Source of the DNA: Levilactobacillus parabrevis ATCC 53295
GTDB taxonomy: Bacteria > Bacillota > Bacilli > Lactobacillales > Lactobacillaceae
Assembly: GCF_001434055.1 (NCBI RefSeq)
Contig: NZ_AZCZ01000001.1
Span: 62,001 to 126,000 of the forward strand
Direction: 5' to 3'
DNA length: 64,000 nt
Positions 19,853 through 34,046 of this stretch are shown piece by piece (within the stretch, counting starts at the first letter, position 1; the number at the start of each line of letters is the position of its first letter). The position numbers and the translations under genes are program-made. Under the pieces are notes generated by a model that saw nothing but the letters and a program-made list of their open reading frames with translations, had not been told where the DNA came from and did not search any database.

Positions 19853-20707
19853 CTACTTAGCCTTCAACAGTGGCGTATCGACGTTGCTGCCGAACCACTT
19901 CTGGTTGATTTGTTCCAGCTGTCCGTTGGCAGCCAACTTTTTCAAGCCGGCATTGATCTTTTTACGCATCGTGACATCGCCCTTACGCATCCCCACTGCA
20001 AATTTTTCCTTGGGGAAGCTCCCGACCGTTACTCGGTAATCTTCGGGGTGAGCTTGGTGCTTGATGTAGTAATTGGCATAAGTGCTATCAATCAGTAACC
20101 CCTTGATTCGGCCAACGTTCAGGTCAATGAATGCGTTGGTAAATGAATCGTAGGTAACCGCGTCGTGATTCTTGATGCGATTCTTCAAGAGCTTGGGATA
20201 CGTGTCAATATCGTTAGCGCCAGATGATCCGGTCTGAGCTCCTAGTACCTTACCCGTCATATCCTTATAAGAAGCAATGTGATTCTTCTTGAGCGAAACT
20301 AGCACCTGGTCGTTGTTCAGGTACGTATCGGAGAAGGCGACCTGCTTAGACCGTTGTGGCGTGATGGAAAAGCCATTCCAAATCAGGTCGATCGTTCCGT
20401 TGTGGAGTTCCGTGACGTTCATGTTCCAGTCGATGGATTGGAAGTCTACCTTGATTCCGTACTGTTTGAAGACGGCACGGGCTAAGTCGATATCGTAGCC
20501 GACCAGCTTCCCACTCTTCTGACGGAAACCCATGGGGACGAAGCTATCGTCCAATCCAATGACGACCTTCTTTTTCTTCTGAATGCTCGACCAAGTATCC
20601 TGGGTGTTGGCCCGCTTCGTAACGTTGGTTCCACAACCAGCTAGCGTTGCCGTCAGCCCAATCAGTAGAAAGGCCAGCGCGAAAAATCGGATTTTTTTAA
20701 ATTTCAT
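19853..20707 (-). CDS. Polar amino-acid ABC transporter, substrate-binding lipoprotein
   Basis: Extracellular solute-binding protein of family 3. The 284-residue product starts with a signal peptide ending in the lipobox LAGC (about residues 18-24), so it is lipid-anchored. SBP_bac_3 signatures follow (VIGLDDSFVPMGFRQKSGKLVGYDIDLARAV and IDWNMNVTELHNGTIDLIWNGFSIT). ATG 20707 has GGGAGG upstream; a longer frame overlapping the ATPase gene lacks one. Substrate is not fixed by sequence; the T-box leader ties it to a charged-tRNA signal. Third gene of the operon. Confidence 0.92.
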   Translation of the reverse strand: MKFKKIRFFALAFLLIGLTATLAGCGTNVTKRANTQDTWSSIQKKKKVVIGLDDSFVPMGFRQKSGKLVGYDIDLARAVFKQYGIKVDFQSIDWNMNVTELHNGTIDLIWNGFSITPQRSKQVAFSDTYLNNDQVLVSLKKNHIASYKDMTGKVLGAQTGSSGANDIDTYPKLLKNRIKNHDAVTYDSFTNAFIDLNVGRIKGLLIDSTYANYYIKHQAHPEDYRVTVGSFPKEKFAVGMRKGDVTMRKKINAGLKKLAANGQLEQINQKWFGSNVDTPLLKAK

Positions 20708-20723
20708 TGCGTGGCGCCTCCCT

Positions 20724-21359
20724 CTACTCTTTTGGTTCAACCCGTAACATTTGATCGGCAATCGATTCTGCAAACGGAATATCATGGGTCACGACGATTT
20801 GGGTCATGCCCTCTCGTTTTAACTTCAAAATAATTTCTTCAACTTCGCGACGTAAGTCTGGGTCCAACGCCGACGTTGGTTCGTCGTAACAGAGTAACTT
20901 GGGGTGCATCGCCAGGGCCCGCACAATGGCGACCCGTTGCTTCTGGCCCCCGGAAAGTTCGTAGGGGTACAAGTCAGCCTTGCCACCAAGGTTCAGCCGT
21001 TCCAGTAAGGCCCGGGCTTCCTTTTCAGCGTCCGCAGCGGACTTCTTCAAGACCATCGTTGGTGCCAAGACCACGTTCTGTAAAACAGTGAGGTTGGGGA
21101 ACAACTGGAAGTCCTGGAAGACGACCCCAATAACGGCATCATTGTCCCGGTTCGTTGCGGGATCGAAGGGCTGGCCGTCCAGTAAGAACTGACCGCCGTC
21201 GACCATTTCCAAGCCACTGATACAACGGAGTAGCGTCGTCTTACCAGCCCCGGAAGGCCCGACGATGGTTAAGATTTGGCCATCGTTCACCGTTAAATCG
21301 ACTTGATCCAAGATGGTTTTGCCATCAAATTTTTTGGTAATCCCTTTAAGTTCTAACAT
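20724..21359 (-). CDS. Polar amino-acid ABC transporter, ATP-binding protein
   Basis: The 211-residue ATPase drives uptake through the adjacent permease. It has Walker A GPSGAGKTT near residue 35, Q-loop FQDFQLF, the signature LSGGQKQR near 135, Walker B LLCYDEPTSALD and the H-loop VVTHD. It is slightly shorter than the usual 240-residue GlnQ-type ATPase, as the tail stops soon after the H-loop region. It lies 18 bases after the permease and 16 bases before the binding-protein start. Confidence 0.94.
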   Translation of the reverse strand: MLELKGITKKFDGKTILDQVDLTVNDGQILTIVGPSGAGKTTLLRCISGLEMVDGGQFLLDGQPFDPATNRDNDAVIGVVFQDFQLFPNLTVLQNVVLAPTMVLKKSAADAEKEARALLERLNLGGKADLYPYELSGGQKQRVAIVRALAMHPKLLCYDEPTSALDPDLRREVEEIILKLKREGMTQIVVTHDIPFAESIADQMLRVEPKE

Positions 21360-21377: not shown

Positions 21378-22019
21378 CTAACGCCAGTAACTGTAGTGCT
21401 TTTCCATCCGTTTCAGGACCAACGTGCAAACAGCCGTCAACAGTAAGTAAATTACACCGACCAGCAGCATTGGTACCAACGTGACGTCTCGCGCCATGGC
21501 GACGTTTCCGGCACGTAACAGATCACCTAACCCGATGACGTAAACCAATGAGGAATCCTTGACCAGATTGATGACTTCGTTTCCGATTGACGGTAAAACA
21601 ATCTTGACCACTTGCGGAATCACAATCTTCCGCAACGTTTGCCAGTTGGTCAACCGCAACACCCGAGCACTTTCGTATTGTCCTACGGGGATGGCTTGCA
21701 GGCCGCCCCGGAAAATTTCAGCGAAGTAGGCGGTGTAGTTCAGGATGAAGGCGAAGAGTGCCGCGTCATACCGGTCGAACACGATGCCGGCGATGGGTAA
21801 CCCATAAAAGACGAAAATTAATTGCAATAACAGTGGGGTCCCTCGCATCAACCAAACGTAGATGTTGATCAACCACGTCAACGGCTTGAATCGGGTAATC
21901 ATGCCCAACCCGACTAAGATTCCAAGTGGGACAGAAATAATTAAGGTCCAAAAGAATATGGATAACGTCATTCCGGTACCGGAAATCAGTGATGGTAAAA
22001 TCTGGCTAACATAGTGCAT
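21378..22019 (-). CDS. Polar amino-acid ABC transporter, permease
   Basis: HisM/GlnP-type membrane subunit of 213 residues with about five transmembrane helices. The cytoplasmic EAA-like loop (QYESARVLRLTNWQTLRKIVIPQ, about residues 110-132) would contact the ATPase. GAAGGAGG lies nine bases ahead of ATG 22019. It is the first gene of the operon and directly follows the double T-box leader, which would control all three genes. Confidence 0.93.
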   Translation of the reverse strand: MHYVSQILPSLISGTGMTLSIFFWTLIISVPLGILVGLGMITRFKPLTWLINIYVWLMRGTPLLLQLIFVFYGLPIAGIVFDRYDAALFAFILNYTAYFAEIFRGGLQAIPVGQYESARVLRLTNWQTLRKIVIPQVVKIVLPSIGNEVINLVKDSSLVYVIGLGDLLRAGNVAMARDVTLVPMLLVGVIYLLLTAVCTLVLKRMEKHYSYWR

Positions 22020-22039
22020 AACAATTCTCCTCCTTCTTC

Positions 22040-22425
22040 AACGCAAAAATGCCCTCCTGAGATTTCTCTCAAGAGGGCGTTGATCGCGCGGTGCCACCTC
22101 ATGTACTCGACGGGCTCACGCCACGCCGACTCACGGAGTCCCCCGCAACAGCCATGAAAATAAAAACGCCCTCTTAGACCCAAATTGGGCCTAAGAGGAC
22201 GATCACATCGTGGTTCCACCTCTAGTTTGCTAAGCCATCGCTGACCTAACCTCGGTGAGTTGCAAGCAACTCCAGCTGTAACGGGCTATCCCGGATCATC
22301 CTACTAGATTCAGACGACCAACTCACAGATGTGTTTCGGACGGACAAGGTCACCCATTTTCATCGGCTGGGCTTTCTGTAGGCACTCGCTGGTCTTACTC
22401 TTCTGTTCGACGTTTTTCGTTCATT
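22040..22425 (-). promoter_or_regulatory. T-box leader with two antiterminator/terminator units
   Basis: Read on the minus strand. A stem I region with an AGTA...GAA specifier loop (about 22300-22400) is followed by a first T-box GGTGGAACCACG (about 22209-22220) and terminator (22164-22199). A second T-box GGTGGCACCGCG (about 22087-22099) and terminator (22045-22079) come next, then the permease start. Only about 120 bases separate the two units, too few for a second stem I. By the canonical GAA-NNN-A rule the specifier would read UCU (Ser), but CUA cannot be excluded. The transporter is thus controlled by uncharged tRNA. Confidence 0.85.
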
Positions 22426-22504
22426 ACCGATATACTACTTTTTATTTTCACAAACGTCAAGCCCTATTTTGAAATTCCTTGAAAGTCGAAGGTTTTACGC
22501 TGAT

Positions 22505-22698
22505 GAAAACTGCTTCCTGCGGCTATCAAAGATTCCGCCTGCTGTGGAGATCGCCTACAGCCACAGAACGGGCTTTCGGCTCGGTTTGACGCCTCGCAAA
22601 ACCCACGATGCTAGCAGTAAGCAACGTCAGAATTCAAATCATCCACTGCATTGCGTGGCAGTCATTAACAACATTTTCACAGAACCTATCAGCTAAGC
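22505..22698 (+). repeat. Dispersed element, subfamily A, partial
   Basis: Contains the 5' boundary (CTTCCTGCGGCTATCAAAGATTCCGCCTGCTGTGGAG) and the first hairpin sequence (CTACAGCCACAGAACGGGC, then TTTCGGCTCGG) very like the copies at 19417 and 53690. The middle and distal hairpins are eroded. The end CAGCTAAGCTT resembles the common tail GGCTAAGCTAG. It is directly adjacent, in opposite orientation, to the next element. Confidence 0.6.
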
Positions 22699-22730
22699 TT
22701 GAACCAATATCAGTTTGAAGAACAGTCAAA

Positions 22731-22912
22731 GCCGGAGGAGGCCAAGGATGGAGCCAGCCGTGGGTGTCCTGTTAGGACGGATGGACCTTCCGACCTTACA
22801 GGACTGGACGCTTCGGAGACACGATTTCTGTGGCTTCGAAGCGAGGTTCAAGACCGCTTCACAGGCTTGAACCGGTCCCCACAGCGGTAGAATCCTTGGC
22901 AGCCGTAGGTGA
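22731..22912 (-). repeat. Full three-hairpin dispersed element, subfamily A, inverted
   Basis: Tail-to-tail with the preceding partial copy. Read on the plus strand it has stems GTCCTGT/ACAGGAC (22766-22772/22798-22804), CGCTTCG/CGAAGCG (22809-22815/22837-22843) and GGTTCAAG/CTTGAACC (about 22845-22852/22866-22873). These are bracketed by AGCCGTGGG and CCCCACAGCGG. It lies downstream of minD, after the min operon terminator. Confidence 0.8.
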
Positions 22913-22944
22913 GACCATTCCCGTACAAGCTATAACTGTGAAAC

Positions 22945-22985
22945 CAAAAGGAAGTCCTCAACGACCACCGTCGTCAAAGACTTCC
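22945..22985 (-). terminator. Terminator of the mre-min transcript
   Basis: The minus strand reads GGGAAGTC, an inner imperfect stem, GGACTTCCTTTTGG. It is about 25 bases past the minD stop. The T-run is short, so termination may be partial. Confidence 0.6.
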
Positions 22986-23008
22986 CGTTCATTTCATAAT
23001 TTTAGAGC

Positions 23009-33779: not shown

Positions 33780-34046
33780 AAAGACTCCCCATCCTAAAAA
33801 TTAGGACGAAGAGTCTTCGCGGTACCACCTAAATTGGGCGTTTATGCCCCACTTAACTTCTTTGTTAACGGAGAGTGCTCCGGTCTGGGCTTACTGTTGG
33901 TTCAGCCCAGCAGCTCGCAAGCTACTTTCACGTCAGGTGATTCACCGGTTTTCAGCATTCCCGGCTCTCTGAGCAATCCCCTCGACGCTACTGACTTGTT
34001 CAACGCTACTTTTACATAGTCTACGCAATTTTGGCCTAAAGGTCAA
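33780..34046 (-). promoter_or_regulatory. valS T-box leader and promoter
   Basis: The promoter -35 TTGACC (34041-34046) and -10 TAGACT (34018-34023), 17 bases apart, lie over the tpx stop. The leader has an AGTA...GAAA specifier loop with GUA (Val) readable, the T-box AGGTGGTACCGCG (33818-33830) and a strong terminator with TTTTT (33780-33818). Standard architecture, in contrast to the doubled leader at 22040. Confidence 0.9.

Follow-up and report, generated by a model that had tools for sequence, protein, structure and literature searches.

The window analysed here, a stretch of 64,000 nucleotides from Levilactobacillus parabrevis, carries on its minus strand, at 22419-22045, a T-box leader in which one Stem I is combined with two complete T-box/antiterminator/terminator units, and downstream of this leader lies an amino-acid ABC transporter operon (Table 1). 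The Rfam T-box model RF00230 matches the locus once, over model positions 1-219, and reports no second Stem I between the units of the leader; the 58 nt that separate the end of the first U-tract (about 22157) from T-box 2 (22098), and which contain the second Stem III, are too short to hold one. These two observations also rule out a fully tandem T-box. The initial annotation had proposed two T-box sequences, each with its own terminator, and room for only one Stem I, and this description is borne out by the single covariance-model match, by the short gap upstream of the second unit and by the terminator-like sites that lie 3' of both T-boxes. The first of these sites (22201-22167) has 16 pairs followed by TTTTTATTTT, with a U-tract extending to about 22157, and the second (22078-22051) has 12 pairs followed by ATTTTTGCGT and then ATTTTT; two such sites compare with a mean of 0.6 (sd 0.8) in shuffled sequences. 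In both units the antiterminator and the terminator are mutually exclusive as predicted structures. Of the three matches to the T-box pattern GGTGGNACCNCG across the 64 kb, two are these T-boxes and the other falls within a complete T-box at 34012-33799. The name F-box in the table is taken from PMC7583486, as used in the text covered of that paper.

Table 1. Features of the leader and the downstream operon, in window coordinates
Feature	Positions	Strand	Basis or remark
Promoter-like site TTGACG-17-TAGTAT	22432..22460	-	9/12 consensus matches; basis is consensus match only
Complete T-box RF00230 (Stem I, II, IIA/B, III, antiterminator 1)	22192..22419	-	Rfam 95.1 bits, gathering cut-off 93
Predicted specifier triplet CAC (His) within GAAA-CAC-A-UCUG	22331..22333	-	Rfam alignment and homologous leaders
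F-box region CCCGUUA (Stem IIA/B)	22279..22285	-	
S5, shared strand GGAGUUGCUUGCAAC	22259..22273	-	Predicted alternative pairing with C1 or C2
C1 with the purine anchor of unit 1 (GCAACUCACCGAGG)	22250..22263	-	
Stem III of unit 1	22229..22251	-	
T-box 1 GGTGGAACCACG / GGUGGAACCACG (bulge UGGA)	22209..22220	-	
Terminator 1 including U-tract	22157..22201	-	-28.1 kcal/mol
C2 GUUGCGGGGGACUCC, predicted long-range partner of S5	22135..22149	-	
Stem III of unit 2	22107..22129	-	
T-box 2 GGTGGCACCGCG / GGUGGCACCGCG (bulge UGGC)	22087..22098	-	
Terminator 2 including U-tract	22045..22078	-	-23.3 kcal/mol
Ribosome-binding-like sequence AAGGAGGAG	22027..22035	-	
Polar amino-acid ABC permease	21378..22019	-	HEQRo_perm_3TM above cut-off
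ABC ATPase	20724..21359	-	Best match GlnQ, below its equivalog cut-off
Substrate-binding protein, same operon	19853..20785	-	

Between the promoter-like site of the leader and a gene that resembles MinD by eye, the window has about 540 bases (22470-23008) with G+C-rich stretches and without a convincing gene or an Rfam match at the gathering score.

Levilactobacillus fuyuanensis, L. tujiorum and L. hammesii have permeases that share 98-99% identity with the one in this operon. The substrate of the transporter is not named by NCBIfam, all equivalog models among the matches listed being below their cut-offs. The PDB entry 4ohn is a close match, for which the match result gives no ligand; the structure reportedly holds histidine. 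A T-box(His) is reported before hisYZ*X in 77 Lactobacillales cases in the text covered of PMC9413887, and from the operon content together with the T-box specifier we infer that the operon in the window is the hisYZ*X of that report.

The specifier is predicted to be CAC, for histidine, because the placement rule given in the available part of PMC7778990 counts back 5' from the end of the specifier bulge and puts it at positions 2-4, and because the Rfam alignment sets the 3' side of the specifier loop, GAAA-CAC-A-UCUG, against GAAA-GUA-G-CUUG in the valS T-box of the same window. The latter (33799-34012, minus strand), an ordinary T-box with a GUA specifier for valine, served as the control for the rule, and the ORF at 33678-31003 resembles by eye a valyl-tRNA synthetase. 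The initial annotation had preferred UCU, for serine, with CUA as an adjacent frame; its interpretation holds for the one Stem I and the two units, but both of its specifier readings fail, since UCU (22329-22327) is paired with AGA in the lower helix of Stem I as aligned by Rfam and the canonical place is occupied by CAC rather than CUA. All 81 homologous leaders compared (that of the window plus those of the best 80 of 489 relatives) carry CAC, a result that is conditioned on histidine in that the search pattern allowed CAC or CAT, while the positions on either side of it vary (T 37, A 21, C 19 and G 4 on the 5' side; A 78 and G 3 on the 3' side). Among 30 further loci of the same family the pattern gives CAC in 12, and 3 others have GAAACACAUCUG by eye; in a second family, CAC occurs in 28 of 28 loci in a search that again allowed CAC or CAT. 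A specifier of CAC matches the tRNA of the downstream pathway, provided that the operon is identified correctly.

The tRNA-His of the genome has, from its sequence, the anticodon GTG and a G at position -1 opposite C73, and C73 is matched by the fourth base of neither bulge, UGGA or UGGC. This is the one observation that speaks for a specifier other than histidine, whether the serine UCU or the overlapping ACA and AAC frames, and such a reading is extremely improbable, given the pairing of UCU in Stem I, the constancy of CAC amid varying neighbours in both families (under searches for CAC or CAT), and the statement, in the part of PMC7778990 covered, that TBDB does not use the discriminator base as a criterion for His T-boxes. 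Since tRNA-His carries a G at -1 opposite C73, the unmatched fourth bulge base is no objection to histidine.

The two-unit arrangement extends well beyond the window. Two units are present in 79 of the 81 homologous leaders, and in these 79 the T-box starts are 100-131 nt apart, so that there is no room for another Stem I; the sole exceptions, from Secundilactobacillus oryzae (L134) and S. malefermentans (L141), have one unit and a strong linker hairpin of their own. Levilactobacillus brevis ATCC 14869 (L107) is among the strains with a two-unit leader. A strict pattern for the pair of T-boxes matches in 153 of 397 sampled genomes of the family (18 of 40 genera), in 59 of 395 genomes of the order and in 7 of 299 genomes of the class, the window's own genome included, and these counts are lower bounds for such leaders because some second T-boxes deviate from the pattern. 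The reversed pattern, used as a control, had no match in the family or order genome rows looked at, and one match in a single row (G942) of the class. The family survey and the 79 of 81 leaders rule out the second unit as a chance occurrence. Of 30 family loci from the strict-pattern survey, 28 have the permease downstream, one (L051) ends too soon and one (L045) has another gene; in the second family to show the arrangement, the permease is downstream in all 28 loci, which had been picked by the pair itself.

In a number of leaders the 3' half of T-box 2 drifts, with ACA, AAC or ATC in place of ACC and with UGG retained (L091-L099, L104, L108, L119, L138, L152, L153, L161, L164 and L165). Leaders with one Stem I and two units also occur independently: four loci in one other Bacilli family (L205-L208, at about locus position 1501) carry such leaders before an ORF that resembles chorismate mutase by eye, with GAAG-UUC-A (Phe, by eye) at the specifier place; a further locus (L209, about 1501, minus strand) has a leader of similar two-unit form before an ORF that by eye is DAHP-synthase-like, again with GAAG-UUC-A by eye; and L045 (about 1501) has two similar T-box units, with no clear Stem I or specifier, before what appears by eye to be an APC-type amino-acid permease.

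In all 79 two-unit leaders each unit is able to form A1 and A2, the antiterminator helices flanking the bulge, as well as a terminator before a U-run, with similar mean energies in units 1 and 2 (-7.8 and -7.0 kcal/mol for the antiterminators, -23.6 and -22.3 kcal/mol for the terminators). Stem III, which shows many two-sided changes in both units in the RNAalifold analysis of 25 leaders, has at least 5 pairs in unit 2 in 120 of 129 leaders and in unit 1 in 113 of 129. GGUGG is present in unit 2 in 79 of 79 leaders, although the search pattern asked for it, and the two leaders that did not match have no second unit at all. In both units the GAGG and CCUC strands are interchangeable. According to the part of PMC7583486 covered, Stem III and the antiterminator together form the discriminator, which is necessary and sufficient for the sensing of aminoacylation. 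Because unit 2 has both elements as one unit, it counts, by this definition and as a predicted structure, as a second discriminator with no decoding part of its own.

The main feature of the leader, which is absent from the initial annotation, is a conserved helix that links the two units and is mutually exclusive with a local hairpin. Between the F-box and Stem III-1 there is a linker hairpin, the 5' strand of which, S5 (15 nt), lies between the F-box and unit 1, and the 3' strand of which, C1, lies just before Stem III-1. Unit 2 begins, just before Stem III-2, with a strand, C2, that resembles C1 and so duplicates the 3' strand of the linker hairpin; no S5 belonging to unit 2 was seen in the leaders compared. 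In the window the S5:C1 hairpin has a predicted energy of -6.6 kcal/mol, while S5 can pair with C2 at 14 of 15 positions, G-U pairs included, at -21.2 kcal/mol for the duplex with the loop cost excluded. The two helices cannot coexist, and they become available at different times: C1 is made before terminator 1, and C2, which is located 3' of terminator 1, is transcribed only once that terminator has been passed.

The S5:C2 pairing was evaluated in 136 leaders, 127 of them distinct; an anchor-based parse kept 129 of the 136, with 105 distinct leaders in the register count. In a fixed register of nine positions, 811 of 945 cells in these 105 leaders are paired, compared with 36-50% when the register is slid by 1-3 positions. 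In an anchor-free test, in which the swapped partners were drawn from leaders with a different S5, the leader's own S5:C2 pairing is better than 95% of the swaps for 125 of the 127 distinct leaders (the failures being L181 and L182), with mean energies of -15.7 for own and -6.0 for swapped partners, and the control strand of unit 1 passes the same threshold in 9 of 127. The own pairing also beats 95% of shuffles in 123 of 127 leaders and fails in 4. When the swap test is based on anchors, 11 of 112 distinct parsed leaders fail, most of which by eye have the anchor at the wrong GAG; of the seven leaders dropped by the anchor-based parse, six outperform 95% of shuffles, L182 being the exception. 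The register count, and the tree and random-column counts given below, still include the mis-anchored leaders.

On a permease tree with 128 tips, 45 compensatory double changes fall at the S5:C2 register, as against 8, 4, 1 and 0 at slides of -1, +1, -2 and +2, while the same S5 columns show 6 double changes against C1, and 40 draws of random unit 2 columns average 3.85 and reach at most 11. Of the 45 changes, 36 are at positions d3-d9, mostly past the part that pairs with C1, so that the match between S5 and C2 is more than a leftover of the duplication. Pair-breaking one-sided changes show no depletion at the true register, with 126 as against 113-136 at the slides, a count that is probably inflated by mis-set anchors. 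In a set of 25 leaders hand-picked for diversity, with the helices named by hand, S5:C2 is 79.7% paired versus 35.5-56.6% when slid, and its covariation score of 0.491 compares with 0.225 in shuffles, none of 500 of which is as high; S5:C1 is 80.0% paired, with a score of 0.462 that is likewise not reached in 500 shuffles. The number of pairs with a two-sided change is not above the shuffles in these 25 leaders, either for S5:C2 (6 versus 5.1, with 160 of 500 as high) or for S5:C1 (149 of 500 as high).

When the sequence from the F-box to T-box 1 is folded, S5:C1 is present in 127 of 128 leaders; when the segment is extended to 60 nt past T-box 2, S5:C2 appears with at least 6 pairs in 89 of 129 minimum-energy folds, the window included, has fewer than 6 pairs in the other 40, and S5:C1 persists with at least 4 pairs in 27 of 129. 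In the window's fold of this extended segment the helix encloses unit 1, and the fold of its full leader shows S5:C2 by eye. RNAalifold applied to the 25 leaders supports both Stem IIIs and chooses neither S5:C1 nor S5:C2; applied to the units separately it finds no S5:C2, the input being unable to hold an inter-unit helix. Among the independent two-unit leaders such a helix is at best weak, the fractions of shuffles being 0.003-0.04 for L205-L208, 0.44 for L209 and 0.57 for L045. For the leaders of the present family, the comparative counts show S5 to be a single strand with two predicted alternative partners, one available before terminator 1 and the other after it.

The explanation that we judge to be the best, and rather probable, takes the leader for a T-box riboswitch that acts on transcription, reads tRNA-His and governs an ABC transporter of the histidine type, with one decoding module (Stem I with CAC, Stem II and Stem IIA/B) serving two discriminator/terminator units through a hand-over of S5 from C1 to C2. 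Uncharged tRNA-His held on Stems I and II would first stabilize antiterminator 1, with S5:C1 positioning unit 1. Once the polymerase had moved beyond terminator 1, C2 would emerge and take S5 from C1, enclosing unit 1 in a loop, and the second Stem III and antiterminator would then occupy the place of unit 1 relative to Stems I and II and the bound tRNA. The 3' end of the tRNA would move to unit 2, or be retested there, before the polymerase passed terminator 2. If unit 2 does take the place of unit 1, read-through would require two successive verdicts of "uncharged", and the same tRNA would presumably be tested twice. What the conserved S5:C2 complementarity shows, at the level of predicted pairing, is that unit 2 is coupled to the decoding part, and not that the tRNA moves. 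The fuller description of the leader as a relay riboswitch, in which one tRNA-reading module is joined in turn to two aminoacylation sensors by an exchange of S5 that takes place only once terminator 1 has been passed, and the same tRNA is checked twice, is tentative, its chances being slightly below even. Against the hand-over count the RNAalifold result, the folds in which S5:C2 is short or S5:C1 persists, the one-sided changes, the number of two-sided changes in the 25 leaders and the independent two-unit leaders; furthermore, two of the 81 leaders manage with one unit, and the completed tRNA-bound structure is credited with extraordinary stability in the text covered of PMC7583486, which would slow the hand-over. 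A sharper response from two serial terminators, as the initial annotation suggested, is plausible.

S5:C2 could instead be purely structural insulation, closing unit 1 as a domain of its own against mispairing, with the terminators acting in series and no tRNA handed over. The interchangeable GAGG and CCUC strands of the two units would make such mispairing a hazard, and unit 1 is indeed enclosed by S5:C2 in the fold of the window; yet for simple insulation alone there would be no need to break up the S5:C1 hairpin, itself a covarying helix, and the strand used, directly 3' of the decoding part, is the same one that places unit 1. We regard insulation as unlikely. It is distinctly less likely that two tRNAs are at work simultaneously, with the first staying on Stem I and antiterminator 1 while a second, uncharged tRNA binds antiterminator 2 by its 3' end alone. 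Unit 2 has kept its T-box bulge, its antiterminator can form, and if the first complex were stable the unit would be left to another tRNA, but having no decoding part it would then answer to any uncharged tRNA, and the S5 tether would be unneeded although the complementarity of S5 and C2 is kept. Very doubtful, finally, is the view that the leader is the remnant of a full tandem T-box that lost its second Stem I, leaving unit 2 as merely a second leaky terminator: fully tandem T-boxes are reported in Bacillota in the text covered of PMC12452182 and some leaders show drift in the 3' half of T-box 2 (from ACC to ACA, ATC or AAC), but unit 2 has a covarying Stem III and a possible antiterminator, keeps the pattern-required GGUGG wherever it exists, starts with the copy of the linker-hairpin strand, and recurs in two families.

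The leader shares with the T-boxes described by RF00230 a Stem I with a specifier, an F-box region, Stem III, a T-box bulge, an antiterminator/terminator and an amino-acid transporter downstream, and it differs from them in having one decoding part for two discriminator/terminator units and a further linker strand, S5, that can take either of two partners. The arrangement as such has precedents. Vitreschak et al. (2008) reportedly defined a structural class of T-boxes with duplicated terminator-antiterminator elements. This is the same arrangement as here, and as that of the partially tandem T-boxes, which in the part of PMC7583486 covered are a known kind with a mode of action listed as unknown; on the strength of both, one Stem I with two units counts as already known, and the earlier classes may well include members of the present family of leaders. 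The text covered of PMC7583486 offers no mechanism for partially tandem T-boxes, whereas the leaders here have the predicted exchange of S5:C1 for S5:C2. What appears to be new is the complementarity of C2, a strand of unit 2, to the S5 of the linker hairpin of unit 1. The S5 exchange helix was not found in literature searches, to whose scope Vitreschak et al. 2008 is external, and is absent from the text covered of PMC9413887, PMC2494555, PMC7583486, PMC12452182, PMC7778990 and PMC2965389.

Fully tandem T-boxes, such as those of thrS and trp in the text covered of PMC12452182, resemble the leader in having two serial terminators that answer to uncharged tRNA, but there each unit has its own Stem I sensor. 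With the His T-boxes of hisYZ*X in the part of PMC9413887 covered, the leader shares its position as a T-box(His) ahead of an operon for a histidine ABC transporter in Lactobacillales; that text mentions tandem riboswitches in five Enterococcus species and treats most such regions as carrying a single T-box, whereas 79 of 81 leaders here have a second unit without a Stem I. A model that requires Stem I would presumably count two-unit leaders as single, which suggests that searches with whole T-box models do so and miss unit 2.

The leader is reassigned to histidine instead of serine, and the S5 linker helix, in tying unit 2 to the single decoding part, would provide a handle that can be mutated on the action of partially tandem T-boxes. 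If the hand-over of the tRNA is real, one ligand would be checked serially by one nascent RNA, and the relay would amount to proofreading by RNA during transcription.
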